Shown here in pieces: positions 1 to 11,282 of a stretch of DNA of 11,849 bases (position 1 is the stretch's first letter; each line of letters opens with the position of its first letter). The stretch spans positions 1 to 11,849 of the forward strand of contig CAKZQX010000783.1 of the NCBI GenBank assembly GCA_937141995.1, given 5' to 3'. The notes under the pieces are model-generated. The model saw only the letters and a list, made by a program, of their open reading frames with translations. It had not been told where the DNA came from and did no database searches. The DNA is from an uncultured Chloroflexaceae bacterium (GTDB lineage: Bacteria; Chloroflexota; Chloroflexia; Chloroflexales; Chloroflexaceae). The position numbers were made by a program, and so were the translations under genes.

Positions 1-143
1 ACGTTTTTTCTTTTTCACACCATGTTTGCACTAAGTGCAAACATGGTGTGAAAAAGCATAGAATCTTCCGCTCTGCCGGAGGCGAATCGGGCCGGCTGTC
101 CAGGTAGACACCGGGTTTGGAACCGACCGCGTAACTCCTGTCA
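1..143 (+). repeat. Dispersed hairpin element, copy 1 (left end cut by window edge)
   Basis: This is the right-hand part of the dispersed element described in the summary. It contains the central hairpin (10-56), the inner inverted-repeat half CTGCCGGAGGCG at 73-84, the body with the GGTTTGGAACCGACC-like block, and the right terminal repeat CGCGTAACTCCTGTCA at 128-143. The left terminal repeat and left inner arm lie outside the window. No coding potential is seen. The assignment rests on similarity to copies at 3135-3334 and 9334-9593. Confidence 0.75.
10..56. repeat. Perfect 22-bp inverted repeat (hairpin) of copy 1
   Basis: Arms 10-31 and 35-56 are exactly complementary around the loop TAA. 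The ends are CTTTTTC and GAAAAAG and the loop is closed by GCAC/GTGC, as in the hairpins at 3199-3251 and 9461-9507. The middle of the arm (ATGTTT) differs from the other copies. The 3' side is followed by A-rich rather than T-rich sequence, so it does not look like an intrinsic terminator on either strand. Confidence 0.85.
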
Positions 144-166
144 CTGAGCAGATTTTTGAAAATAAA

Positions 167-252
167 GGTAACCCGGCATCATGCTACCACAGCCGAACCG
201 GCTTCCATCCGAATCAAGCGTCCGGGTTGAACATTGACCACGTAACTCTCTG
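167..252 (+). repeat. Dispersed hairpin element, copy 2 (degenerate, hairpin lost)
   Basis: This degenerate copy follows copy 1 directly. It shows a GTAACCCGGCATC left-like piece, then ATGCTACCACAGCCGAA, CCGGCTTCCATC, GCGTCCGGGTT and the right terminal CACGTAACTCTCTGG. These align in order with the right half of the copy at 3135-3334. The left inner arm and the central hairpin are missing, apparently by deletion. The boundaries are approximate. Confidence 0.6.
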
Positions 253-269
253 GTAGCGATTATGATTTT

Positions 270-298
270 TTGACATGCCCGCGCTATCATGCTATAGT
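270..298 (+). promoter_or_regulatory. Strong sigma-70-type promoter upstream of the FKBP gene
   Basis: A consensus -35 TTGACA (270-275) is followed after exactly 17 bp by TATAGT (293-298). The -10 is preceded by TGC, which makes it an extended -10. The start of transcription is expected near 304-306. It begins about 17 bp beyond the right end of repeat copy 2. The next gene on this strand is the FKBP-type gene at 614, so this is its best visible promoter. Confidence 0.7.
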
Positions 299-304
299 CA
301 AATA

Positions 305-613
305 ACATCTTCTCATGGTGTTGTTGTTTATTACTAAGTCTGATTAGTGTGACACGTACGGATTTGGATCATGAAATGCAAGCGCTCCGGTCACCTGGTG
401 GGCCGTCTATCATTCTAAGGTTGCGCCAATGCGCCACCAGTAAGGATATCGTATGGATCTGAATGGTTCCATCAATCACCCTTGATGCGTGTAATAGAAG
501 CCACGAACTATGACAATGGCTTTGGCTGTCCCGTCATACGTTTGCTGGCTTTTTGCTTTGGAATGGTACGCACTTTTCCAGAACCGGGGCCAATAGAGCG
601 AAAGGAGCCTGAG
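305..613 (+). other. Long untranslated leader of the FKBP gene, no gene seen
   Basis: If the promoter at 270-298 is used, about 300 nt precede the FKBP start codon. No convincing ORF is present: the in-frame ATG at 485 has no ribosome-binding site and the sequence after it is unlike the SlyD N terminus. A 7-bp stem CTGGTGG (395-401) with CCACCAG (434-440) is the only clear fold. No riboswitch class is recognised. A second, nearer promoter cannot be excluded. Confidence 0.35.
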
Positions 614-1042
614 ATGGCAGAGGCAAAGCAAGGCGATACCGTCAAGGTACACTACACGGGCAAACTGGAGGATGGAACGGTTTTCGATACATCGACAGAG
701 CGTGAGCCGCTGCAGTTCACCATCGGTCAGGGGCAGATTATACCCGGGTTTGAAGAGGCAGTGGTCGGTATGAGCGAGGGCGAGTCGAAGACAACGCAGA
801 TCCCCTCTGATAACGCATATGGTCCTCATCGCGGTGAGATGATTGTTGAGGTTGATCGTTCGCAGTTTCCCCCCAACCTTGATCCCGAGGTTGGGCAGCA
901 GTTGCAGATTCGCCAACCGGACGGGCAGGCCATTGTTGTCACTGTAACGGATCTCTCTGATGAGAGTGCAACCCTGGATGCCAACCATCCGCTGGCCGGA
1001 AAAGATCTGACATTCGATATTGAGCTTGTCCAGGTTGTCTAA
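614..1042 (+). CDS. FKBP-type peptidyl-prolyl cis-trans isomerase, SlyD-like
   Basis: This encodes a 142-residue cytoplasmic protein. It should catalyse cis-trans isomerisation of prolyl peptide bonds and may act as a folding chaperone. The start is ATG 614, preceded by AAAGGAG at 601-607; a longer in-frame ORF from 482 has no ribosome-binding site. The FKBP core is visible as VHYTGKLEDGTVFD (about residues 12-25) and GQGQIIPGFE (39-48). The YGPHRGEMIVEVDRSQFP segment (about 69-86) begins the insert-in-flap region typical of SlyD, and the strand LTFDIELVQV closes the FKBP fold at the C terminus. Unlike E. coli SlyD there is no His/Cys-rich metal-binding tail, and there is no signal peptide. 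The gene stands alone, with a promoter-like site at 270-298 and a terminator hairpin at 1269-1294. The family call is secure; client proteins are unknown. Confidence 0.93.
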   Translation: MAEAKQGDTVKVHYTGKLEDGTVFDTSTEREPLQFTIGQGQIIPGFEEAVVGMSEGESKTTQIPSDNAYGPHRGEMIVEVDRSQFPPNLDPEVGQQLQIRQPDGQAIVVTVTDLSDESATLDANHPLAGKDLTFDIELVQVV

Positions 1043-1064
1043 TGTGGCCGGGGAGCAATGCCTC

Positions 1065-1231
1065 CAGGTGACAGGAAGTACAACACCGTCTTTTCCAAGC
1101 GGGTGCCTTGCGCCTCCGGCAGTGGAGCATGTTTCTTATTTTTTACGAACCATGCTGCCGGAAATGCGACCGAAACAGTGGTCCGATTAAGCACCTGGTT
1201 TGCAGAATACCGTGTAACTCCTGTCAGGTGA
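1065..1231 (+). repeat. Dispersed element, copy 3, with terminal inverted repeats and 7-bp flanking direct repeat
   Basis: TGACAGGAAGTACA at 1069-1082 and TGTAACTCCTGTCA at 1213-1226 are inverted copies with 12 of 14 matches. The inner arm CGCCTCCGGCAG is at 1111-1122 and a decayed partner CTGCCGGAAATG at 1155-1166. The central hairpin is reduced to an imperfect fold around GCATG (1128-1132) and CATGC (1151-1155). CAGGTGA occurs at both edges (1065-1071 and 1225-1231), which could be a target-site duplication partly overlapping the terminal repeat. The copy lies just after the FKBP stop codon. Confidence 0.7.
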
Positions 1232-1268
1232 TTTGCTGAATTTATGGGCCGGGTGGCCCGATCCATGC

Positions 1269-1294
1269 GAGGGCGCGATATTCGCGCCCTCTTT
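1269..1294 (+). terminator. Intrinsic terminator-like hairpin after the FKBP gene
   Basis: GAGGGCGCGA (1269-1278) pairs perfectly with TCGCGCCCTC (1282-1291) around a TAT loop, giving a GC-rich 10-bp stem followed by a short run CTTTG. The T tract is weak. The position, between the FKBP gene and the asnB promoter-like site, fits a terminator for the FKBP transcript that reads through repeat copy 3. Confidence 0.55.
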
Positions 1295-1365
1295 GCGTGT
1301 CTGCGGGATGCCTGGACCTGGCCGGTTGCGCGGGAATTGAATTGCAATCGATCTACTTCCCGGCA

Positions 1366-1394
1366 TTGCTCAATTCCTGTGATCCGGCTACAAT
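1366..1394 (+). promoter_or_regulatory. Sigma-70-like promoter upstream of asparagine synthetase
   Basis: TTGCTC (1366-1371) is separated by 17 bp from TACAAT (1389-1394). This is a reasonable match at both hexamers with ideal spacing. It would give a leader of about 150 nt to the asnB start at 1553. No operator is recognised. Confidence 0.5.
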
Positions 1395-1552
1395 GATTGA
1401 ATTCGTATTGCCCGGCTACAGCGCTATGACCATCTGCAATATTGTCTGGTAGTCATGCGTTATCAGGACAGCAGGAGCGTACTGGTCTGCCTACATTGCG
1501 GCGATGGCGCGGATCATATTGCGCCCTACTGGAGAGAAAGGAAAGCTGCGCT

Positions 1553-3079
1553 ATGTGTGGAATTGCGGGAGTCTGGGGAGGAACCGACAAGACTTCGGTC
1601 GAGGATATGATCGGCAAGCAAGCCCATCGCGGCCCCGATGGGCGGGGCGTGCATGTGCAGGATAATCGGGGTGTGCTGGGGCATGTGCGGTTGTCGATTA
1701 TCGATCCGGCACGGGGCAACCAGCCAATGTACAACGAAGGACGCTCGACCATCATTATTGCCAACGGACAGGTCTACAATCATGCAAAGCTCCGCCGGCG
1801 ACTAATAGGTCCACACCAGTTCACTTCAACCAGTGATAGCGAAACGATCTTGCACCTGTTCGAGGAACAGGGATTAGGTACTACCGGGCAACTGGATGGG
1901 ATGTTCGCCTTTGCGGTGATTGAGGAAGATGAACTCTTCCTGGCGCGCGATCCCATCGGGATCAAACCACTCTACTATGGCATCGAGAATGAGGGCAGCG
2001 CCGAGCAGACGCTCTACTTTGCCTCGGAGTTAAAGGCCATCTCGCGCTGGGTGGATAATGTACGCGAGTTTCCGGCGGGAACCTACTACCACTCGCGCAA
2101 CGGCTTCCGTACCTACTACACCGTCCCTGATAATATTCCTCGGGCGATGCCGGTTGAGGTGCATGCACAAAATGTACGCCACACACTGGAAGAAGCGGTC
2201 ACCAAGCGCCTGATGAGTGATGTGCCGCTTGGCGCGTTTCTGTCGGGCGGGCTGGATAGCAGCGTAATTGCCGCGATTGCCCGCCGGCACAAGGATGAAC
2301 TGCACACCTTTGCCGTCGGCGTCGAGGGCTCGCGTGACGTAGAGGCAGCGCGGCGGGTAGCAAAGCATATTGACTCGGTGCATCACGAGTATGCTTACTC
2401 CATTGATGAGGTGCTGGAGAAGCTGCCCGAAATTATCTATTACCTGGAGTCATTTGACCAGGATCTGGTACGTAGCGCTATTCCGACCTACTTTTGTGCG
2501 CGCATGGCCGCTGATTATGTCAAAGTGATCCTGACGGGCGAGGGCGCCGACGAGCTGTTTGCCGGGTATACCTACTATAAAGATATTCACGACCCGGATG
2601 CGCTCCACAAAGAGTTGCGCCGCTCGGTCAATAGCCTGCACAATGTCAATTTGCAGCGGGTTGACCGTATGACAATGCGGCATAGCATCGAGGGACGGGT
2701 GCCCTTCCTGGACACGCAGATGGTTGAGATGGCGCAGACGATCCCGGCGGATCTGAAGCTGCGCGCCAATGGGAACGGCAAGCGGGTGGAGAAGTGGATC
2801 TTGCGCAAAGCCGTGGAGGATCTGCTGCCCCACGATATTGTCTGGCGCAACAAGGAGCAGTTTGACGAGGGCAGCGGCACAGTGGATATGTTGCAGGAGA
2901 TTATCGAGACGGCCGCCGCCTCGATTGACCCGGTTGAGTATGCGGCACGCTACCCACAGGATCGCCTGCGCTCGGCGGAGGAGTGTTACTACCACAAACT
3001 GCTGGTAGAGGCGTACGAGAAGCCCGAGGTGGTGCTGCGCAATGTCGGCCGCTGGCACGACCGGGAGGAGAAGGGTTAA
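1553..3079 (+). CDS. asnB: Asparagine synthetase (glutamine-hydrolysing), AsnB type
   Basis: This 508-residue cytoplasmic enzyme should make asparagine from aspartate, ATP and glutamine-derived ammonia. The start is ATG 1553 because class II amidotransferases need Cys2 exposed after Met removal (MCGIAGVWGG). AAGGAA lies about 9 nt upstream, and the longer ORF from 1442 would bury the nucleophile. The N-terminal glutaminase domain shows Cys2, HRGPDG (25-30), GHVRLSIID (43-51), ANGQVYNH (70-77) and a DSE motif. The C-terminal PP-loop synthetase domain shows SGGLDSS (231-237), GEGADELFAGY, and a late RVPFLD segment. The glutamine-binding motif is usually NGEIYNH; here Gln replaces the Glu at residue 73. 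The length is slightly shorter than E. coli AsnB. It stands alone; its stop codon lies inside a 14-bp tandem repeat (3073-3128). Specialised amidation rather than free Asn synthesis cannot be excluded, but the neighbours give no hint of it. Confidence 0.93.
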   Translation: MCGIAGVWGGTDKTSVEDMIGKQAHRGPDGRGVHVQDNRGVLGHVRLSIIDPARGNQPMYNEGRSTIIIANGQVYNHAKLRRRLIGPHQFTSTSDSETILHLFEEQGLGTTGQLDGMFAFAVIEEDELFLARDPIGIKPLYYGIENEGSAEQTLYFASELKAISRWVDNVREFPAGTYYHSRNGFRTYYTVPDNIPRAMPVEVHAQNVRHTLEEAVTKRLMSDVPLGAFLSGGLDSSVIAAIARRHKDELHTFAVGVEGSRDVEAARRVAKHIDSVHHEYAYSIDEVLEKLPEIIYYLESFDQDLVRSAIPTYFCARMAADYVKVILTGEGADELFAGYTYYKDIHDPDALHKELRRSVNSLHNVNLQRVDRMTMRHSIEGRVPFLDTQMVEMAQTIPADLKLRANGNGKRVEKWILRKAVEDLLPHDIVWRNKEQFDEGSGTVDMLQEIIETAAASIDPVEYAARYPQDRLRSAEECYYHKLLVEAYEKPEVVLRNVGRWHDREEKG

Positions 3080-3128
3080 CGGTTACGGGTTAACGGTTAC
3101 GGGTTAACGGTTACGGGTTAACGGTTAG
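3073..3128 (+). repeat. Tandem repeat, four 14-bp units GGGTTAACGGTTAC
   Basis: The units are 3073-3086, 3087-3100, 3101-3114 and 3115-3128. The first three are identical and the last ends in G instead of C. The asnB stop codon TAA (3077-3079) is in the first unit, so the last asnB codons overlap the repeat. Copy number could vary by slippage without changing the protein. Confidence 0.95.
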
Positions 3129-3134
3129 ATAAGA

Positions 3135-3334
3135 TAACACGAGTTACGCGATCACTGACCCGAAAGCGTATGTCGCCTCCGGCAGGGTGGAAGATTCCTT
3201 TCTTTTTCACAAACATGTTGCACGTTGTGCAACATGTTTGTGAAAAAGAAAAAAGGTACTATGCTGCCGCAGGCGAAGCCGGCTTCCGTCGGGTGAAACG
3301 TCCGGTTTGCATATCAACCGCATAACTCATGTTA
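3135..3334 (+). repeat. Dispersed hairpin element, copy 4 (complete, 200 bp)
   Basis: This is the best complete copy. The left end TAACACGAGTTACGCG (3135-3150) and right end CGCATAACTCATGTTA (3319-3334) are inverted with 14 of 16 matches. The inner pair CGCCTCCGGCAG (3174-3185) and CTGCCGCAGGCG (3264-3275) is complementary at 11 of 12 positions. The central perfect hairpin is at 3199-3251. To the right of the inner arm come CCGGCTTCCGTCG and GTGAAACGTCCGGTTTGCAT, shared with the copy at 9334-9593. TTAGAT flanks both sides (3125-3130, 3332-3337), a possible but weak target duplication. There is no ORF inside. Confidence 0.85.
3199..3251. repeat. Perfect 25-bp inverted repeat (hairpin) of copy 4
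   Basis: Arms 3199-3223 and 3227-3251 pair without mismatch around loop GTT. The core has the family ends CTTTTTC / GAAAAAG and GCAC / GTGC at the loop, with an extra TTT/AAA pair outside. The middle (ACAAACATGTT) differs from the hairpins at 10-56 and 9461-9507, while complementarity is kept. Confidence 0.9.
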
Positions 3335-3363
3335 GATGAAGTTTGAAAAAATAGTCCGGATAT

Positions 3364-3493
3364 GTGATTCACTGGCGTCCCGGCTTTAGCCGTACGTGAC
3401 TCACTGGAGTCCCGGCTTTAGCCGGTGGAATGCCTGCCAGGGCCGGGACATACTGCCGGGAACACCCGGACCGACTGAAGCCGGGACTCCAAT
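3364..3493. repeat. CCCGGCTTTAGCCG repeat, two direct copies and one inverted copy
   Basis: Two 29-bp direct repeats, 3364-3392 and 3396-3424, differ at two positions (3368/3400 and 3376/3408). They contain GTCCCGGCTTTAGCCG, whose end is itself partly palindromic. A diverged inverted copy lies at 3471-3493 (CCGACTGAAGCCGGGACTCC). The three together can fold into a large stem. This type of short repeat looks like a genome-wide intergenic repeat; no function is evident. Confidence 0.75.
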
Positions 3494-3555
3494 CCTGCGA
3501 TGTCCGGATTACAATTTCAAAGTTCGTCTAACAGGAGTCAGGCAGGGGAAGTTTG

Positions 3556-3661
3556 GAACGCGAAGGCCACGAAATAAGCGAAAGACGCGAAACCGCTGGT
3601 GTCGGCAGCGTTGCCACGCAGATTTCATGGCTTTCGCCCTCTTTCGTGACATTCGTGGTCC
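3556..3661. repeat. CGAAA-rich imperfect inverted repeat
   Basis: The left arm 3556-3593 consists of CACGAAATAAGCGAAAGACGCGAAA-like iterations. The right arm 3621-3661 is its imperfect reverse complement, with TTTCATGGCTTTCGCC and CTTTCGTGACATTCGTGG. About 27 bp lie between the arms. This resembles intergenic repeats built from short CGAAA modules. An ORF running through it into the downstream permease gene is judged an artefact. Confidence 0.55.
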
Positions 3662-3719
3662 GAGCCTCCCTACCGACCGACAGATGCCTGCATTACATAT
3701 CACGCAGCACGCAGCACAT

Positions 3720-4442
3720 ATGGTTTCTCTCCCACTAACACTGCTGGTCATGGCGATCCTCTTCTGCACGACCTTTACGCGCTCGACGCTGGGGTTTGGT
3801 GACGCGCTGCTCGCTATGCCGATCCTGGCCCTGGTGATCGACATCCGCATGGCGACACCGCTGGTGGCGTTTGTGGGCACAACCACCGCGCTGACAATCC
3901 TGCTCCAGGGCTGGCGTACCGTGGATCTGCGCGCCGCCTGGCGACTGATCCTGGCTTCCTTTCTAGGCATTCCCATCGGTTTGCTGCTGCTGAAGGGCGT
4001 CCCGGAGGGACTGGTCAAGGCGGTGCTGGGCGTTGTGCTGATTCTGTTCGGGCTGTACAACCTGGCACGACCGGAACTTCCGGCGCTGCGGTACGGCGGC
4101 CTGGCCTATCTCTTCGGGTTTATCGCCGGTATCCTGGGGGGCGCGTACAACACCAATGGCCCGCCGATTGTGATGTACGGCACGCTCCAGGGTTGGTCGC
4201 CGGAGCGGTTTCGCGCGACGCTCCAGGGCTACTTTGTGCCGACCGGCCTGCTGATCCTGCTGGGGCACGGGGCCGCCGGGTTGTGGACGCCGCAGGTCTT
4301 CTGGCTGTTTGGCTGCTCCTTCCCGCTGATTATGCTGGGCGTGTTCCTGGGGGGGCGGCTGAACCAGGCCATCCCGAAAGCGCGCTTCGAGCGGGTGTTG
4401 TATCTCTTCCTGATTGGCATTGGAATTCTGCTGATTGTGTAA
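3720..4442 (+). CDS. TauE/SafE-family (DUF81) membrane permease
   Basis: This encodes a hydrophobic protein of about 240 residues in the inner membrane. The family includes exporters or importers of sulfite, sulfoacetate and other organosulfur anions; the substrate here is unknown. The N terminus (SLPLTLLVMAILFCTTFTRSTLGFGDALLAMP) shows the family pattern of a first helix followed by a short G-F-G-D-A loop. About seven to eight membrane helices follow, in two halves, the second with GFIAGILGGAYNTNGPPIVMY, the typical G-G-x-x-N-x-x-G-P-P signature. ATG 3720 is chosen by length and hydrophobic onset. ATG 3684 is in frame and possible; neither has a clear ribosome-binding site. The ORF remains open upstream to 3396, but that part is translated repeat DNA. 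It stands alone between repeat-filled gaps. Confidence 0.85.
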   Translation: MVSLPLTLLVMAILFCTTFTRSTLGFGDALLAMPILALVIDIRMATPLVAFVGTTTALTILLQGWRTVDLRAAWRLILASFLGIPIGLLLLKGVPEGLVKAVLGVVLILFGLYNLARPELPALRYGGLAYLFGFIAGILGGAYNTNGPPIVMYGTLQGWSPERFRATLQGYFVPTGLLILLGHGAAGLWTPQVFWLFGCSFPLIMLGVFLGGRLNQAIPKARFERVLYLFLIGIGILLIV

Positions 4443-4450
4443 CCTCCACA

Positions 4451-4508
4451 GTGCCGGCAGGCGGCACGCTCTGCCCTATCCCCATGTCCGGGCAGCTTCC
4501 TCCCTTTT
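4451..4508 (+). terminator. Possible terminator region after the permease gene
   Basis: Two short stems follow the permease stop codon: GTGCCG (4451-4456) with CGGCAC (4462-4467), then CTGCCC (4471-4476) with GGGCAG (4490-4495). A pyrimidine-rich stretch ending CCCTTTT (4502-4508) follows. The stems are short and the T run is four bases, so this is only a plausible terminator. The rest of 4443-4710 shows no gene. Confidence 0.3.
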
Positions 4509-4600
4509 GACTAAGCGCTGTTCCTTCCTGAGACTGATTTCCGTCTATCAGTGTATTTTTACAATAGAGTTACCCATACACACATCACGGAACCCGTAAC

Positions 4601-4640
4601 GACAACTGGTCATACCGATGGGTTGTCATAGTACGACAAC
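4601..4640. promoter_or_regulatory. Cluster of GACAAC / GTTGTC half-sites, possible operator
   Basis: GACAAC at 4601-4606, GTTGTC at 4622-4627 and GACAAC at 4635-4640 form inverted pairs. The 4622-4640 pair is a 19-bp near-palindrome, symmetric except at one pair. It lies about 170 bp before the DUF418 gene, downstream of a TACAAT (4560-4565) that has no good -35. A binding site for an unknown regulator is possible; no known operator is recognised. Confidence 0.25.
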
Positions 4641-4710
4641 AGGATTTCTTGCTCATCGCAGAGACGCATCGGTATCAGCATCGGCTCCTGCTCTGCAGTT
4701 TACCAAAGGT

Positions 4711-4773
4711 ACACGGTTGCTCACCCAAAAGGAAATTTCGCCTCCGGCAGGGTGGAACCGGCTTTTGCGTCTG
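4711..4773 (+). repeat. Dispersed element, copy 5 (left half only)
   Basis: ACACGGTTGCTCACCC followed by GGAAATTTCGCCTCCGGCAG and GGTGGAA matches the left half of copies 4, 7 and 8, with the inner arm at 4739-4750. The hairpin and right inner arm are missing; the sequence jumps to CCGGCTTTTGCGTCTGG. It ends just before the ribosome-binding site of the DUF418 gene, and an apparent upstream ATG at 4752 lies inside it. Confidence 0.6.
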
Positions 4774-4811
4774 GCTTAAAGATTAGTATACCTACACAGG
4801 GAAGGAACATT

Positions 4812-6122
4812 ATGATAACTCATGAAGTAGCGCAACGCGGACAAACGCCGGCGCAGACGATTGCGCCAACCCAACCGCGCGAACGAATTGTGATCGTTGA
4901 TATCCTGCGAGGCTTTGCCATCTTCGGCATTCTGCTGGTGAATATGCTGATCTTCGCCGCGCCCGTTTATCAGTTTGTCCTGGAAACATCACCCTGGCCC
5001 GGCCCGGTTAATCAGGCGGCTGCGAGCTTCATTCGTTTCACGGCTGAGGGCAAGTTCTTCACCATGTTCTCGCTGCTGTTTGGGTTGGGCCTGACCATGC
5101 AAATGAGTCGGGCCGAGAGTCGCGGCATCCGCTTTGTGCCGCTCTACTTGCGGCGTATGTTCATCCTGCTGCTGTTTGGCCTGGCACATGTGCTGCTCTT
5201 CTGGCCGGGTGATATTCTCACCTACTATGCCATCCTGGGCACACTCCTGCTCTTCTTTCGCAAGCGCTCCCCGCGGACACTGCTCATCTGGGCCGTCATT
5301 CTGCTGATTATTCCAATGGTGCTCAACGCCGGTCTGTTCGGCCTGGTTGCCCTGGCAGGCAGCACGCCCGAAAGCGCAGCCATTGTTGATGAGCAGATGG
5401 CCCTGACCATCGCCGAGTATGAAACCAGTTACCAGGAAGCCCTGCGCATCTACACCGAGGGCAGCTTTGCCGAGATGGCGATGCAGCGACTGCAGGATTT
5501 TGCGTTTTCGACGATGGGAATCTTTCTGAATGGCATGTTCTTTGTCATTCTCGCCATGTTCCTGCTCGGTCTGTATGTGGGCCGCCGCCGACTGCTGCAC
5601 GATATTCCGGCCAATCTGCCCTTCTTCCGCCGGGTGATGCGCTGGAGTCTGGTGGTGGGACTGGTTGCCAACCTGCTGTACGTCTGGTTAAATACGCTTA
5701 TCAACCCGGCGGAGTTTTCGTTGCCCTTGCTGCTCTCGGTCGTAAGTTTTGTCATTGGTGCGCCCGCGCTCTGCCTGTTTTATGTGACGGCACTCATCCA
5801 GTTGACTCAGAATCAATCCTGGCAACAGCGGCTTATGCCGCTGGCGGCCGTAGGGCGTACCGCGCTCAGCAACTATCTGCTCCAGACCCTGGTCTGCACA
5901 ACAATTTTTTATGGCTATGGCCTGGGACTGATGGGACAGGTCGGCCCGGCACTCGGCTTGCTCTTGAGCATTACCATTTTCTCGGTTCAGGTGATCATTA
6001 GCAACTGGTGGGTGCGGCGGTTCCGCTTTGGACCGATGGAGTGGCTCTGGCGCACCGCTACCTATGGCAAGCTGCAGCCGATGCGGGTACAATCCCTGCA
6101 AGAGCGCCATGCCACGGGTTAA
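4812..6122 (+). CDS. DUF418 (YeiB-like) multi-pass membrane protein
   Basis: This encodes a 436-residue integral membrane protein. The family is widespread and its biochemical role is not settled; transport or acyl-transfer-like functions have been proposed from its remote relation to membrane acyltransferases. The start is ATG 4812, with GGGAAGGAA at 4799-4807 upstream. The in-frame ATG 4752 is rejected because it lies in a repeat. The N terminus is a short polar tail, then R-I-V-I-V-D-I-L-R-G-F-A-I-F-G-I-L-L-V-N-M (about 25-45), the hallmark opening of YeiB proteins. It is followed by GKFFTMFSLLFGLG and paired helices with FWPGDILTYYAILG. A less hydrophobic loop (about 175-235) precedes the C-terminal DUF418 domain with GRTALSNYLLQ (348-358) and the closing FGPMEWLWR (about 406-414). 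Roughly ten membrane helices are expected. No partner gene is adjacent; the 6244-6284 hairpin lies downstream. Confidence 0.88.
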   Translation: MITHEVAQRGQTPAQTIAPTQPRERIVIVDILRGFAIFGILLVNMLIFAAPVYQFVLETSPWPGPVNQAAASFIRFTAEGKFFTMFSLLFGLGLTMQMSRAESRGIRFVPLYLRRMFILLLFGLAHVLLFWPGDILTYYAILGTLLLFFRKRSPRTLLIWAVILLIIPMVLNAGLFGLVALAGSTPESAAIVDEQMALTIAEYETSYQEALRIYTEGSFAEMAMQRLQDFAFSTMGIFLNGMFFVILAMFLLGLYVGRRRLLHDIPANLPFFRRVMRWSLVVGLVANLLYVWLNTLINPAEFSLPLLLSVVSFVIGAPALCLFYVTALIQLTQNQSWQQRLMPLAAVGRTALSNYLLQTLVCTTIFYGYGLGLMGQVGPALGLLLSITIFSVQVIISNWWVRRFRFGPMEWLWRTATYGKLQPMRVQSLQERHATG

Positions 6123-6243
6123 CGTTCCGGTTCAGTTGATCACGCGGCTGTCGGCCCGGCGCTCCTCCGCGTCCGATTTTACAATCTCTTAGCATTCTGT
6201 TAACACTCTCATAGAGGAACCACAATCTTCGGGCGCTACGCTA

Positions 6244-6284
6244 ATACGGAACCGTGTCTGCATATCTGGGACGCGGTTTCGTAT
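6244..6284. terminator. Long stem-loop after the DUF418 gene, possible terminator
   Basis: Positions 6244-6258 pair with 6270-6284 (ATACGGAACCG with CGGTTTCGTAT plus four further inner pairs, including G-T pairs) around an 11-nt loop. This is a 15-bp stem in the gap between the DUF418 and PHP genes. There is no T tract, so it may be a factor-dependent stop, an mRNA-stabilising structure, or an upstream element of the PHP gene. Confidence 0.4.
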
Positions 6285-6304
6285 ACTCTACGACCAGACG
6301 ATGA

Positions 6305-6438
6305 TCAGACAGAGGAGCTATGCGGTTGGTTCCAAACCAGGCGTTTGCCTGGATGAATGTCCCGATTCGCCTGCGCCCTGCCGGAGGCGAAAATGCCTTT
6401 TGCGTCAGCAATCGCGTAACTCCTGTCAGACAGAGGAG
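6305..6438 (-). repeat. Dispersed element, copy 6, reverse orientation, hairpin deleted, flanked by 13-bp direct repeat
   Basis: Read on the minus strand this is a full-length element without the central hairpin. It has a left end TGACAGGAGTTACGCG, TTTTCGCCTCCGGCAGGGCG, then directly CAGGCGAATCGGGACA, and a right end CGCATAGCTCCTCTGTC. On the plus strand TCAGACAGAGGAG occurs exactly at 6305-6317 and again at 6426-6438, flanking the copy. The second repeat provides the ribosome-binding site of the PHP gene. This suggests insertion with target duplication. Confidence 0.75.
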
Positions 6439-6448
6439 GAATGATCCG

Positions 6449-7162
6449 GTGAATACATCCTGGAGCAAGGCTGATCTGCACATTCATACCAACTATAGCA
6501 GTGATGGAACGGCAAGTGTTATCGATATTCTGGAGTATGTCGCTGCCAACACCGATCTGCGGGTGATTGCCGTCACCGACCATGATCGGATTGACGGCGC
6601 GCTGGAGGCCCGGCAGATTGCCGGTTCCTACGGCATTGAAGTGATCGTCGGCGAGGAGGTTTCGACGGTAGAAGGTCACATGCTGGCGCTGTTTATCGAG
6701 GAGCCGCTGCTGCCGCACTGTCCCGCCGCCGAGACGATTGCTGCCGTACATGCGCAGGGTGGGTTGTGCATTCCGGCGCATCCCTACGGCTGGCGCGTGC
6801 CCTCGATGGGCCAGACGCGCCTGCACGAGCGCTGCGTTGGCCCCGACTGCGAGTGGCCGATTGATGCCATAGAGACGTTTAACGCGGGGCTCTGGCTGGC
6901 CCGGAACAATGTCCAGGCGGCTGCGGTGGCACGGCAACTGAACATGCCCGGCTGCGGTGGCAGCGACTCGCACCATCTGCCGACGCTAGGCCTGGGGGAC
7001 ACGCAGTTCCCCGGTACTACGGCCGCCGATCTGCGTGCGGCCATCAAAAGCGGCCAGATCCAGGCCGGCGGCATGCAGTGGACCCTGGGCCACAATGTCG
7101 AGTTTATCAGGCGCTGGCTGGTCGGCCAGACCCAGCGCGTACTCAGGCCGTCCACTCCGTAA
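6449..7162 (+). CDS. PHP-domain metal-dependent phosphoesterase (TrpH/YciV-like)
   Basis: This encodes a soluble protein of 237 residues. PHP proteins hydrolyse phosphoester bonds with a di- or trinuclear metal centre; TrpH-type members act on 3'-5' nucleotides or RNA 5' ends, and the substrate here is not determined. Metal ligands are visible as DLHIHT (9-14), TDHD (43-46), GEE (68-70), H77 in EGHM, PAHP (109-112) and GSDSHH (171-176). GTG 6449 is chosen: GAGGAGGA lies 8 nt upstream and the PHP motif follows at once. An in-frame ATG 6320 would add 43 residues encoded by repeat copy 6, preceded by a duplicate GAGGAG that is only 2 nt from the ATG. The two C-terminal thirds (CVGPDC and the RLNMPGCGG-like part) carry several cysteines. 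Its 3' end overlaps the convergent gene at 7143 by 20 bp. Confidence 0.88.
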   Translation: MNTSWSKADLHIHTNYSSDGTASVIDILEYVAANTDLRVIAVTDHDRIDGALEARQIAGSYGIEVIVGEEVSTVEGHMLALFIEEPLLPHCPAAETIAAVHAQGGLCIPAHPYGWRVPSMGQTRLHERCVGPDCEWPIDAIETFNAGLWLARNNVQAAAVARQLNMPGCGGSDSHHLPTLGLGDTQFPGTTAADLRAAIKSGQIQAGGMQWTLGHNVEFIRRWLVGQTQRVLRPSTP

Positions 7163-9107
7163 CAGCGGGGCCCGCTTCAAAGAAGATCGACGGCAGCAGG
7201 TTGAAGCGGCGATTCAGCCAGGGCAGCAGCAGCCGCACTGCCCGCTGGCGGAGCGGCGGGATAAACAACAGTGAGGCGACTGCCCCGGCAATACCGGCAC
7301 GCGGACGATCTTCATAAAAGAGCATAAACACAAGCACAGCCATGGCGATCATTCGTCCAGGGTGGCGTTGGCGTCCCCGGTGCTGCCGGGTTTGCAGCCG
7401 GTCCACCAGCATACAGGCCAGGCGTGTGCGCGCCCAGAACATCTTCGGGTGTCGCTCGAGGCTACGCAGGAAGGTAGCGATTTCTTCAACTTCGAGCGGC
7501 GGTAAGTCGGCGTTGCCCGACCAGGCTGCCTGGTGCTGCGCGATAACCTGGCGCACGCCGGGCGTCTCGGCGATCACGGCGCTCCAGTCGGCGTGCCGGG
7601 CAGACCATGCGGCAGCAAACATCCGCAGCATCAGCGCGCGAATCTGCCGGGCCACATTGAGCAGATCACAAAAGTAGTAGGCGCTCTCCACCACGCCGGC
7701 CGCGCGCGCATCCGCCACCGGAGCCAGGCGCGCTAACCGTTCGGCATGTCCGGCGAGGCATTCTGACGCCGCGGCATCCTCCCGCAGCAGCGTTTCCCGG
7801 TCCTCTATCGCGGTGGCAAGATAGGCCCAGATAACCAGCGAAGCCGTTGGTCGCATCCACCAGATCCAGAGGAGCGGCGGCAGGTAGATCGATCCCAGCG
7901 TACGCTTCCCGTGCGTGAGACGCCCGGGATACCAGGCCTGCGCGATCACCTGTGTTGAGTCCCGATAGAGATCGGCGACCGCCGCGCCGAACGGTTCGCC
8001 AAAATGTTCATCGCACCAGCGATAGACAAAGGCTGATGTATCCAGGTCAGGATTGTGAACCAGGGCCGCCGTCAGCGCGCTGTTGAGTTCCGTCCAGAGG
8101 CTCCAGCCCTCGCTGCCGAGTGCCGCTCGACCGCCGCCCCAGCCCCCGGTGCCATTCCAGGCCCAGACACCCGCAAACTGCCGGTTGGTTGCCGACGCAT
8201 GCTGGAGAACCGACTGGTGCAACTCCCCGATAGAACTGGGCACCATCCCAAAGAGTTCATACTCGCGCCGGTTCTGCATTTCAACGATCTGCGCCGGGCC
8301 GGGGAGGCCAAGCGTCGGGTTATGCGGCAGGTGCCGGAAGAAGTCCGAGGGACCATGCTTGATCGAGACCAGCAGATGCGGCGAGGTATAATCCGCGAAG
8401 GTGGCTCCATAGCGAGTGGGCGACCAGAGCAGATCCCCCAGTTCGCCAATGCCGATACTCCAGGTGCGGATGATCAGCAGCCGGTCGTAGGCTTCGCACA
8501 CCGGCAGCAGCGTAGCGATCAGACGGCGCAGGCTGTCGGCGGTGGTGTAGAGCATGTGGCCCATGTAACGCTGGCCCTGGTTATGCGCACCGCCCGTCTC
8601 CCCAACCCGCACAATCACCCCCCGCACCTGGGGCAGCAGCGTAAACAATTCTTCCACGGCCCAGCGGTTGATCTCCGCCAGACGTGGGTTGTGCGCTGTC
8701 ATCCGCCGGGCAAAGCGCCGCACAGGAGGCGTACTCCACTGCATATCGGTCGTCACAAAAACTTCCATGCCGCGCTGTACCGCATCCGCGAACAGCGGCC
8801 CAAATGCCTGACGGTATATCATCGCGCGCAGGCGATAGGGACTGTTGCCGGGGTAGATCTCAACCGGGGCCGTCTCAAAGCCAACCAGATGGGGCAGGTT
8901 ATCGATGACAATGCCGGTGTAGCCCTGCGCCTGAATTCGCTCAAGGTATGCGCCGGCCCGCGCCAACCCCTGCGCAAGCTGGGGCTGATCGACAAAGGGC
9001 ATCTGGGGCAGATCAAGCTGGTAAAACGGGAGGGAAGACCAGTTGCGGAAGGGTTTGGCCGGATCGTAAAACGGACCGCTGATATCGCTCAGGCAGCGAC
9101 GAGTCAT
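7143..9107 (-). CDS. GH67-like (alpha-glucuronidase-type) putative glycosidase with hydrophobic C terminus
   Basis: This is a 654-residue protein with no signal peptide. The central part (about 45-300) reads as a TIM-barrel glycosidase: alternating strands such as GIVIDNLP (65-72), GMEVFVTTDMQW (113-124), RGVIVRVGETGG (162-173), LLIIRTW and LLVSIKHGPSDF (245-256), then IVEMQNRREYE (274-284). The last three blocks resemble the GH67 pattern with its acid Glu, the K-N-G-P-x-D-F block and the E-F-Q block, suggesting E170, D255 and E276 as catalytic residues. This is recognition from memory, not a search. W/G-rich AGVWAWNGTGGWGGG follows. The last 80 residues hold two hydrophobic stretches (about 586-598 and 604-618), unlike classical GH67 enzymes. 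The start ATG at 9107 has AAGGAA 9 nt upstream; the longer start at 9158 would lie inside the promoter at 9149-9157. Alternative: a diverged TIM-barrel protein of unknown activity. Confidence 0.6.
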   Translation of the reverse strand: MTRRCLSDISGPFYDPAKPFRNWSSLPFYQLDLPQMPFVDQPQLAQGLARAGAYLERIQAQGYTGIVIDNLPHLVGFETAPVEIYPGNSPYRLRAMIYRQAFGPLFADAVQRGMEVFVTTDMQWSTPPVRRFARRMTAHNPRLAEINRWAVEELFTLLPQVRGVIVRVGETGGAHNQGQRYMGHMLYTTADSLRRLIATLLPVCEAYDRLLIIRTWSIGIGELGDLLWSPTRYGATFADYTSPHLLVSIKHGPSDFFRHLPHNPTLGLPGPAQIVEMQNRREYELFGMVPSSIGELHQSVLQHASATNRQFAGVWAWNGTGGWGGGRAALGSEGWSLWTELNSALTAALVHNPDLDTSAFVYRWCDEHFGEPFGAAVADLYRDSTQVIAQAWYPGRLTHGKRTLGSIYLPPLLWIWWMRPTASLVIWAYLATAIEDRETLLREDAAASECLAGHAERLARLAPVADARAAGVVESAYYFCDLLNVARQIRALMLRMFAAAWSARHADWSAVIAETPGVRQVIAQHQAAWSGNADLPPLEVEEIATFLRSLERHPKMFWARTRLACMLVDRLQTRQHRGRQRHPGRMIAMAVLVFMLFYEDRPRAGIAGAVASLLFIPPLRQRAVRLLLPWLNRRFNLLPSIFFEAGPAVTEWTA

Positions 9108-9148
9108 GGAGCACAATTCCTTCATCTCAGAATGATGCAACAGATAGC

Positions 9149-9157
9149 AGTATAGCA
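9149..9157 (-). promoter_or_regulatory. Extended -10 promoter-like site for the GH67-like gene
   Basis: On the minus strand TGC (9155-9157) precedes TATACT (9149-9154), an extended -10. The -35 region is poor, as is common for this promoter type. Transcription would start near 9142, about 35 nt before the chosen start codon at 9107, and downstream of the alternative start at 9158. This supports the shorter protein. Confidence 0.45.
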
Positions 9158-9269
9158 TGCTCTGGGCCGCATCCTTCCAGCGCTACCTGATCGCCCCACG
9201 AAACCAGGTATAATGCATACCAGCAGTGTTGCGTGAGATCATTGCATGTCTCAATTTTTGCCTGAGAAT

Positions 9270-9314
9270 GCATGCCGCCTCGTGGAAACAGCCGGGTTCC
9301 AGGAAGCGGCATGC
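9270..9314. other. 45-nt imperfect hairpin between divergent genes
   Basis: GCATGCCGC (9270-9278) pairs with GCGGCATGC (9306-9314), and on the same axis TGGAA (9283-9287) pairs with TTCCA (9297-9301) with two internal mismatches. It lies in the divergent gap between the GH67-like and MFS genes, six bases before a perfect TATAAT (9320-9325) that lacks a good -35. Either an operator for a regulator acting on the MFS gene or a repeat remnant is possible. Confidence 0.45.
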
Positions 9315-9400
9315 GTCGTTATAATTGGTAAATATACAAGTGACGCAGTTCCGTAACCCGGAAGAGAATTTCACCTCCGGCAGGGCGGAATCGGACATCC

Positions 9401-9443
9401 TTTTTGGAAAAAAGTGGCTCTCCGAGCCACTTTTTTCCAAAAA
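9401..9443. terminator. Perfect 20-bp hairpin with A6/T6 flanks, bidirectional terminator-like
   Basis: Arms 9401-9420 and 9424-9443 are exactly complementary around TCC. The core is six A, GTGGCTC, loop, GAGCCAC, six T (9408-9436), the form of an intrinsic terminator in both directions. It is embedded in repeat copy 7, upstream of the MFS gene, where it could stop or attenuate transcripts entering from the left, or insulate the two divergent genes. Confidence 0.6.
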
Positions 9444-9460
9444 AATCGAAAATAGAGCAT

Positions 9461-9507
9461 CTTTTTCAGAAAACATTGGCACAAAGTGCCAATGTTTTCT
9501 GAAAAAG
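9461..9507. repeat. Perfect 22-bp inverted repeat (family hairpin) of copy 7
   Basis: Arms 9461-9482 and 9486-9507 pair without mismatch around loop AAA. The ends are CTTTTTC and GAAAAAG, with GCAC/GTGC at the loop, as in the hairpins at 10-56 and 3199-3251. The middle (AGAAAACATTG) is specific to this copy. Confidence 0.9.
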
Positions 9508-9634
9508 GTAAAAAGAGGACTATGCTGCCGCAGGTGAATCGGGCTTGCATCGAGTGAAACGTCCGGTTTGCATGGCAACTGCGTAAGTTCTATCCAATAG
9601 AGTAATGATCAGAACTGTGTGAAAGGAATGTGCG

Positions 9635-11113
9635 TTGACCACCTCGAGTGAGCAAATGCGCCGGCCGGACGTTGACTATAGCCGCAAATGGTACGCAATG
9701 GCAGCCGTCGCCATGGGCATTTTTTTATCAACAATTGATGGCAGTATCGTCAATATTGCCCTCCCCACGCTGGAGCGTGAGCTAAACACCACCTTTGCCA
9801 TTGTGCAGTGGGTGGCGCTGGGCTATTTTTTAACAGTGACAATTCTGCTGTTAAGCGTGGGGCGTCTGGCCGATATTATTGGCAAGAAGCTGCTCTACAC
9901 GCTGGGGTTTATTATCTTCACCGCCGGTTCGGGATTGTGCGGGGTGGCGCCGACGATTGCCTGGCTGATTGGCTTTCGCGTGCTCCAGGCGGTCGGTGCG
10001 GCGATGATGATGGCGCTGGGTCCGGCCATTGTCACCGAGGCATTTCCGCCGAGCGAGCGGGGTAAGGCGCTGGGCATCACCGGGTTGATGGTCTCGATTG
10101 GGATTGTCGTCGGACCGACGCTGGGGGGTGTGCTGATCGAACAGTTCTCCTGGCACTGGATTTTCTTTGTGAACATACCGGTTGGTATTGTTGGTATCTT
10201 GATCGTGCTTCGGTTTGTGCCGGATACCCGGCCGCCCGGCGGGCAGCGGTTTGACTACCTGGGGGCCGTTACGCTCTGCCTCAGCCTGATCGGGCTGCTG
10301 TTGGGGATGACGCTGGGGCAGCAGTTTGGTTTTGATCAGCCGATAATTCACATGCTCTTTGCCGGTTGGATTATCTTTCTGCTCATCTTTATCTTCATTG
10401 AGTGGAAGAGCCGCCAGCCGATGGTCGATCTGACGCTGTTTCGCAATAGTCTGTTTAGCATAAATCTGATCAATGGGTTAATCTCTTTCATTCTGGTTGC
10501 CGGGAGCCTGATGCTGATACCCTTCTATCTGGAGAATATCCTGGGGTATGATACACAGCGCGTCGGGTTGCTGCTTGCGCCGGTACCGATTGCGCTGGGT
10601 GTGGCCGCCCCCATCGCCGGGGCGCTGTCGGATCGGGTGGGGACGCGTGCCATCACCATTGTCGGGCTGCTGGTGATGCTGGTCGGCTATGCCGGCCTGA
10701 TGTCGCTCGATACGCATACCAGCGTGCTCGGCTACATTCTGCGCTTTCTGCCGGTTGGCCTGGGGATGGGAATTTTCCAGTCGCCCAACAACAGCGCCGT
10801 GATGGGCACCGTACCACAGACGCGGCTGGGGGTAGCCTCCGGGTTGCTGGCGATGACGCGCACGCTGGGGCAAACGGTCGGCATTGCGCTGTTGGGAACG
10901 ATCTGGGCCGGCCGGGTGGCGGCTGCCGCGAGTGAGCCGTTGACAGGGCAGACAACGGAAGCGCCGCCGCCGGCTCAGGTTGCCGGGCTGCACGATACCT
11001 TCTTTGTCGCGGTGGTGTTGCTGCTGCTGGCGCTGGGGTTGAGCACCTGGGGCCTGCTGCAGGAGCGCCGGGCAACGCTCCGGCGGCGTGAGTCGTCCCG
11101 ACCGATTGCGTAG
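9635..11113 (+). CDS. MFS drug exporter, DHA2 (14-TM, EmrB/QacA-like) family
   Basis: This encodes a 492-residue inner-membrane protein. It should be a proton-driven exporter of drugs or other amphipathic compounds; the substrate is unknown. The start is TTG 9635 with AAAGGAA at 9622-9628; the protein then opens with a polar tail and helix 1. Seen motifs: LSTIDGSIVNIALP (31-44), the family's helix-1 acidic motif; GRLADIIGKK, the MFS cytoplasmic loop motif A; ITGLMVSIGIVVGPTLGG, the antiporter motif C; and the loop ending in FDYLGA before the two extra central helices of 14-TM members. A second GALSDRVGTR-type motif A repeats in the C half. The C terminus is short, basic and cytoplasmic. No EmrA-type membrane-fusion partner or regulator gene is adjacent. 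The stop codon lies in the 21-bp direct repeat that begins repeat copy 8. Repeat copy 7 sits directly upstream. Confidence 0.92.
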   Translation: MTTSSEQMRRPDVDYSRKWYAMAAVAMGIFLSTIDGSIVNIALPTLERELNTTFAIVQWVALGYFLTVTILLLSVGRLADIIGKKLLYTLGFIIFTAGSGLCGVAPTIAWLIGFRVLQAVGAAMMMALGPAIVTEAFPPSERGKALGITGLMVSIGIVVGPTLGGVLIEQFSWHWIFFVNIPVGIVGILIVLRFVPDTRPPGGQRFDYLGAVTLCLSLIGLLLGMTLGQQFGFDQPIIHMLFAGWIIFLLIFIFIEWKSRQPMVDLTLFRNSLFSINLINGLISFILVAGSLMLIPFYLENILGYDTQRVGLLLAPVPIALGVAAPIAGALSDRVGTRAITIVGLLVMLVGYAGLMSLDTHTSVLGYILRFLPVGLGMGIFQSPNNSAVMGTVPQTRLGVASGLLAMTRTLGQTVGIALLGTIWAGRVAAAASEPLTGQTTEAPPPAQVAGLHDTFFVAVVLLLLALGLSTWGLLQERRATLRRRESSRPIA

Positions 11114-11245
11114 GTCGCGTTACAGACCATGTGTTACGCGGTCGTTGACCCGGCAAGGAATTTCGCCTCCGGCAGGGCGGAACTGCTTTTCGAGGGATAA
11201 ATCCGCCGGTTTGAAAGCCGATCACGTAGGTCGCGTTACAGACCA
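11109..11245 (+). repeat. Dispersed element, copy 8, between 21-bp direct repeats
   Basis: An identical 21-bp sequence starting CGTAGGTCGCGTTACAG occurs at 11109-11129 and 11225-11245. Between them lie a left end GTTACGCGGTCGTTGACCCGG, GAATTTCGCCTCCGGCAG (inner arm 11164-11175) and GGCGGAA, then a short remnant without a hairpin ending GTTTGAAAGCCGATCA. The first direct repeat contains the MFS stop codon TAG (11111-11113). The second runs into the terminator hairpin at 11240-11282. Confidence 0.7.
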
Positions 11246-11282
11246 CGAAGGCTGCTGGTCGTCACAGCAGCCTTCGTGGTCT
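11240..11282. terminator. Strong stem-loop between convergent MFS and OsmC genes
   Basis: Arms 11240-11257 and 11265-11282 pair perfectly over 18 bp around a 7-nt loop. The stem core is ACCACGAAGGCTGCTG with its complement. No long T run follows on either strand (CTTGGCACTTT on the plus side). Its place between two convergent genes makes a bidirectional terminator or 3'-end-protecting structure the best guess. Confidence 0.6.

Follow-up and report, generated by a model that had tools for sequence, protein, structure and literature searches.

A high-copy miniature inverted-repeat element in an uncultured Chloroflexaceae bacterium, with an IS701-like candidate mobiliser and a central hairpin of matched arms

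Introduction

Bacterial miniature inverted-repeat elements (MITEs) are short and non-coding, carry terminal inverted repeats, are flanked by target duplications and occur in many copies. An element alike in these features recurs along an 11,849-bp stretch of DNA from an uncultured Chloroflexaceae bacterium (GenBank assembly GCA_937141995.1, contig CAKZQX010000783.1), referred to here as the window. The window is one entire contig (C783) of a draft genome, G000, which comprises 5.4 Mb in 1,122 contigs and is 86% complete. The element stands apart from other bacterial MITEs by its frequency of one match per 4.6 kb in the sampled contigs, by its arrays on shared duplications and by a core that is matched within a copy yet diverging between copies.

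The IS701 family of insertion sequences (ISs) offers the closest comparison for the transposase regarded here as the partner of the element. The nearest profile of this transposase in Pfam is DDE_5 (PF13546), for which it passes the cut-off (40.8 against 27 bits). The nearest in NCBIfam is IS701_2, with 125.8 and 151.9 bits for its two representatives against a cut-off of 250, and the protein falls under every IS701 cut-off. The IS701 member ISDge5 is printed with ends CTCAGGAGTTGCACCT, which share CAGGAGTT with the ends of the element, and with a duplication of 5 nt (excerpt of PMC8533066). For a member from strain DY59 the printed duplication is nTAG (excerpt of PMC10017437). The 4-5 nt duplication printed for these two members was not found here; the IS L244 described below has 7 bp and the MITE copies have 7 or 8.

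The second comparison concerns the replication of quasipalindromes. Template switching has been described as homogenising their arms and inverting their spacers, and earlier bacterial data favouring transversions are cited in the same source (excerpt of PMC8604942). It has also been proposed to maintain stems (excerpt of PMC8794818). In these excerpts the process is known in separate genes and RNA stems, whereas the proposal here has it operating side by side in hundreds of copies of one repeat. The overall explanation put forward, a MITE moved in trans by an IS701-like mobiliser with its hairpin arms kept identical by template switching, is considered likely.

Structure and copy number of the element

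The element is bounded by a 15-bp terminal inverted repeat (CAGGAGTTACGCGGT ... ACCGCGTAACTCCTG). Inwards follow a subterminal stretch, the inner arms CGCCTCCGGCAG and CTGCCGCAGGCG and, at the centre, a hairpin whose arms are about 22 bp long and whose loop is mostly 3 nt. The spacing of paired ends is about 100-280 bp in most of 133 pairs. It is 180-219 bp in 65 of them, and the shorter spacings are without part or all of the core. The complete element is about 190-200 bp long and is often found as a form of 100-160 bp without the core. Terminal inverted repeats, a target duplication of fixed length, the lack of an internal transposase and the many copies make the family almost certainly a MITE.

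A family profile was built on 50 near-full-length copies and run over 61 contigs of the same genome (457,067 b). Forty of these were selected for holding the element or its end, and 20, numbers 1, 50, 100 ... 950 (109,859 b), form an unbiased sample. The profile gave 189 non-overlapping matches, against 0 on the same contigs reversed. In the unbiased sample, 24 matches spread over 10 contigs account for 2.6% of bases; scaling gives an estimate of about 1,180 matches genome-wide (bootstrap 614-1,796), and the eight that are near full length correspond to about 395 such copies per genome. The window is denser than this genome average. Across the genome there are 545 instances of the end motif CASGASKTACGCGGT and 0 of the reversed control pattern. 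The initial annotation, which described eight copies of a non-autonomous, protein-less inverted-repeat element in the window, is borne out: every listed place is matched by the profile, and the element is present at high copy number.

An Rfam scan of the window gave 18 matches up to E = 1, none reaching gathering scores, and the element had no match among plasmids. A search of the literature on Chloroflexi MITEs, MITE hairpins, IS701, Kouleothrix ISs and the string GTTACGCGGT, with most subscription papers outside it, found no description of this MITE family in the titles and abstract openings listed.

Target duplications and arrays

Duplications were examined in 91 near-full-length copies. 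One had no 40-base flanks and eight of the remaining 90 were not anchored, which left 82 anchored copies. Exact flank repeats are present in 28 of these, with a length of 7 bp in 15 and 8 bp in 13, and 24 of the 28 fit TNAN(N)TNA. Agreement of at least 6/7 is seen in 31 anchored copies (4.9% of shuffled pairings) and of at least 7/8 in 20 (0.8% of shuffled pairings). Flank matches are near background at 6 bp (mean 1.70 vs 1.57) and at 9 bp (2.41 vs 2.41). Perfect 7/8-bp duplications also occur at paired ends in relatives: 5/22 in the sister genome G001, 1/5 in G049, and 1/1 each in G002 and G024. The paired ends of G007 and G028 gave 0/1 each.

The same lengths separate neighbouring copies. 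In 124 neighbouring pairs, 44 gaps from a right end to the next left end are shorter than 60 bp; 25 of them measure exactly 7 bp and 17 exactly 8 bp, 42 in all, and two have other lengths. It follows that copies insert into the duplicated site next to an existing copy. In the proposed sequence of events, the transposase would recognise CAGGAGTTACGCGGT-type ends and make staggered cuts, 7 or 8 bp apart, in the target at TNAN(N)TNA. Insertion would duplicate the target site beside the element, and later copies landing there would build the end-to-end arrays.

Candidate mobiliser

Transposase loci of relatives were scanned for ends of the element type. This led to L206, a 1,274-bp IS in which perfect 15-bp ends CAGGACTTACGCGGT flank a DDE transposase identical to the protein in the record of Kouleothrix aurantiaca COM-B. 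A second IS, L244, from a metagenome-assembled genome of Ardenticatenaceae, measures 1,267 bp, is bounded by CAGGAGTTACGCGGT on either side and lies between perfect 7-bp duplications of TCAGTAA. Its transposase is 69% identical to that of L206. A further relative (G014) has seven end motifs near contig ends. In five of these stretches the same 96 b recur without change and are 83% identical to the final 29 codons of the transposase gene in L206; a repeated IS would be expected to leave such a pattern in a draft assembly. Relatives of the partner transposase number 1,215 among 8,000 scored candidates, and many of the 120 relatives listed sit on contigs of IS length. Among plasmids, 58 records matched, every one at less than 60% identity.

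The mobiliser is very probably an IS701-like DDE transposase, and the end type shared with the ISs of relatives suggests that this IS group moved the MITE copies. Such an IS701-related enzyme would act, or would have acted, in trans on the MITE. The initial annotation had called for a transposase gene bounded by the same ends; such ISs were found, in relatives. L206 and L244 seem to represent an IS701-like group that follows a separate target rule, because the duplications printed for IS701 members or examined in IS701_2 elements are 5 nt, nTAG or 5-6 bp, and those seen here are 7 or 8.

Several observations weigh against this assignment. No matching target duplication flanks the IS of K. aurantiaca. 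The draft genome of the window holds no close match to the L206-type transposase, and neither do any of the eight genomes with at least nine end motifs (G000, G001, G003, G009, G024, G049, G051 and G078). The expectation that the repeats are mobilised by something elsewhere in the same genome accordingly finds no gene in this draft, where the one IS701-like gene (L201, on contig C394) is 23% identical to the L206-type transposase and has other ends. A copy may have been missed, since the draft is 86% complete. The autonomous copies are either repeated ISs lost from draft assemblies or truly gone.

Other candidates were set aside. The C394 gene was rejected on its different ends. An ISAs1 origin was considered on the basis of CAGGG ends; the sole PF13808 match in the genome is a broken piece without the element's ends nearby. 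In a scan of PF01609 transposases (30 loci from 11 genomes), an inward-facing end pair around the gene was seen in L169 only. L169 is an IS701_2 element and was rejected as mobiliser because it is unmatched in six end-rich genomes (G001, G003, G024, G049, G051 and G078) and its kind leaves 5-6 bp duplications; the search for its matches also yielded L206. Inspection by eye of four of the long end-to-end candidate spans gave no recognisable transposase.

The IS701_2 elements (L169, L185-L190, L212) form a second IS group, occurring in the same families as the MITE-type elements. Their TAGGACTTACGCAGT-like ends are similar to the MITE type and differ at a few positions. The L169-type transposase is 28% identical to the L206 type, and duplications are 5-6 bp in five of eight elements examined in relatives, against 7 or 8 for the MITE group. 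These elements are unmatched in most end-rich genomes.

Palindromes of the REP/BIME type, whose spread depends on a REP-associated tyrosine (Y1) transposase, share with the element their palindromic form, intergenic position and large numbers, and the initial annotation had raised this enzyme. The genome has no Y1_Tnp match, although 5 of 14 control genomes do, and the element leaves clear target duplications of 7/8 bp. Such an origin is hardly credible.

Distribution, age and gene context

The end motif is present in 22 of 150 relatives and in 43 of 400 genomes sampled across the phylum. Outside the class (346 genomes, counted by eye) there are 43 end-motif matches and about 42 of the reversed control, which equals background. 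Within the sampled genomes, high end-motif counts are restricted to the order. In the sister genome G001 (loci L068-L087) the element takes a distinct form, with the same ends, a core ending TTTTCGCC/GGCGAAAA and frequent GTTCGACTGCGCTCAGGGC-type inserts.

The family was initially thought to be active or recently active. This is unsupported, as the closest pair among the 91 near-full-length copies is just 93% identical, and there is therefore no sign of a recent burst. Mean identity of whole copies depends on the method, being 68% in one multiple alignment and about 75% in pairwise comparison (flanks). A perfect duplication is retained in 27 of 75 copies.

The claim that copies spare genes holds roughly. 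Of the 189 matches, 60% overlap crude gene calls by less than 10%, compared with 13% when positions are randomised; on average the overlap nevertheless amounts to 33%, compared with 82% for random positions. Some of the crude calls are open reading frames inside elements, for example at 1038-1347 and 9182-9578 of the window.

The central hairpin

The core combines paired arms with differing sequence. Of 99 centre-covering copies, 85 form a stem of 12 or more pairs, and 64 of these stems are perfect. Only 30 of 1,893 stem pairs are mismatched (1.6%; 11 G-T, 13 A-C and 6 others), a figure lowered somewhat by the stem finder, which trims at mismatches. Within the same copy, the two ends differ by 17.7% (75 copies) and the inner arms by 14.4% (77 copies). 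On the unbiased contigs alone, the six stems contain a single mismatch among 129 pairs. For G001, 9 mismatches among 208 pairs come from 11 listed stems, with one locus counted twice and two end-to-end pairs of terminal inverted repeats included.

Between copies the arms diverge. The 85 stems have 82 different left arms; some of these differ in trimmed length alone, leaving 78 groups over the shared length. By pairwise alignment of 68 copies, divergence is 24% in the stem and 25% in the flank. An earlier reading of the stems as hypervariable rested on an ungapped comparison (61% identity) and was abandoned on these figures. Stems are clearly further apart than flanks only in the 37 pairs at 10-15% flank divergence (21%); the six closer pairs show no such excess (9%). 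Stem distance has almost no relation to flank distance (Mantel r 0.08, P 0.09).

The target duplication serves as a rough clock for the time since insertion. In 55 copies, 37 of 403 duplication positions are mismatched (9.2%) against 18 of 1,231 stem pairs (1.5%; Fisher P 1e-11), and the difference persists in a stricter set of 46 copies (Fisher P 1e-5). The set of 55 excludes 20 of 75 copies with at least three duplication mismatches, and misassigned duplications would raise the 9.2%. Given the low stem mismatch relative to that of the duplications, the stems appear to be held together after insertion. The same figures bear on a simpler account, in which transposition requires a perfect foldback and the stem, perfect at the start, receives no later maintenance. 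The perfect stems, many of them with good duplications, agree with it. The disparity within the same copies does not, nor does the stem mismatch of 1.8% (8/438) in the 20 copies whose duplications differ at three or more positions, some of which perhaps never had a recognisable one. This account is unlikely.

The hairpin may alternatively be functional at each site, as a transcript end, an mRNA protection or a protein-bound cruciform, with structural selection keeping the pairing. The retention of pairing while arm sequence differs, and the position of most copies outside crude gene calls, would suit such a role. Orientation to tandem flanking genes is however unbiased (24 same, 18 opposite), and by eye the stems are flanked by T-rich sequence 5' and A-rich sequence 3', the reverse of an intrinsic terminator. 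The hairpin is also often deleted (12 of 99 copies by the author's reading). The near-equal G-T and A-C mismatches point the same way, in a test that is weak because copies occur in both orientations. Site function is thus rather unlikely, if less so than a perfect start.

Template switching is the best fit for the maintenance of the arms, and is given an even chance. On this view the central foldback is a DNA palindrome, and the polymerase, by switching from arm to arm during replication, would keep the two arms identical once a copy has inserted. Among 191 close stem pairs, which are non-independent, there are 429 two-sided differences and 22 one-sided. The two-sided changes are mainly transversions (350 vs 79) and the one-sided mainly transitions (16 vs 6); the transversion excess is weaker by allele count (21 transversion and 9 transition alleles with at least three copies). 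One copy pair has identical arms and reverse-complement loops (GGA / TCC), the type of product described for template switching in the excerpt of PMC8604942.

Three results count against this mechanism. Simple copying of one-arm mutations predicts something other than different spectra for one-sided and two-sided changes. The loop set is not enriched in reverse-complement pairs (25, against a shuffle mean of 21.7 and range of 16-26). Fourteen of the 99 centre-covering copies are without a 12-pair stem; by the author's reading the core is deleted or truncated in 12, imperfect in one and eroded in one.

It is also conceivable, if decidedly unlikely, that a step in the element's own life cycle replaces the whole foldback core at once, for instance through a hairpin intermediate templated on a single arm in transposition or repair, so that both arms are reset together. 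If true, each copy would carry a near-unique self-complementary core that alters in paired, transversion-rich jumps and passes between copies independently of the flanks, and the family would amount to an extensive natural archive of rewritten palindromes in a bacterium.

Copies in the window and neighbouring repeats

The eight copies are collected in Table 1. Copy A, initially annotated as 1-143, is incomplete because the window is a whole contig and the contig end cuts the copy.

Table 1. Element copies in the window, and blocks in long copies at other loci that resemble a neighbouring repeat
Feature	Position	Strand	Description	Basis
Copy A	1..140	+	left part cut at contig end; perfect hairpin 10-56; right end 126-140	profile match
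Copy B	144..252	+	right-half fragment; weak right end 237-251	profile match
Copy C	1072..1223	+	short core; duplications 1064-1071 / 1224-1231 agree 7/8	profile match
Copy D	3138..3331	+	full length; perfect 25-bp stem 3199-3251; duplications agree 6/8	profile match
Copy E	4703..4765 (about)	+	left-end fragment	profile match
Copy F	6312..6425	-	short, without central hairpin; duplication TCAGACA 7/7 at 6305-6311 and 6426-6432	profile match
Copy G	9335..9592	+	long; two perfect hairpins 9401-9443 and 9461-9507; target duplication not seen on inspection of 9337-9591	profile match
Copy H	11128..11235	+	short; duplication TTACAGAC 8/8 at 11120-11127 and 11236-11243	profile match
Long-copy blocks resembling the CACGAAA/GCGAAA repeat	L067 from about 1500; L061 2314-2586; L107 2831-3072			by eye

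Other repeats lie beside the copies. At 11105-11127 the stop codon of a transporter-like gene falls within right-end-like sequence, and the common 8-bp site TTACAGAC adjoins copy H. Immediately 3' of copy H, at 11240-11282, there is an inverted repeat with perfect 18-bp arms around a 7-nt loop. A 14-bp tandem repeat of GGTTACGGGTTAAC type (3070-3127) begins at the stop of an asparagine-synthase-like gene, named by eye. A separate repeat at 3361-3491 has CCCGGCTTTAGCCG-type copies, both direct and inverted. A palindromic CACGAAA/GCGAAA repeat occupies 3550-3665, and by eye a similar block lies inside some long copies of the element.

Significance

The observation and the reading of the family as a MITE are right, and a type of mobiliser with matching ends is in hand. 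In the unbiased sample the repeat recurs about once per 4.6 kb, and the partner enzyme indicates an IS701-like group whose target, TNAN(N)TNA of 7/8 bp, is unusual. The paired yet diverging core is the unexpected part and is worth the attention of specialists. With hundreds of separate palindromes, many of them carrying a duplication as a rough clock, arm-to-arm correction in short inverted repeats would be measurable in nature.

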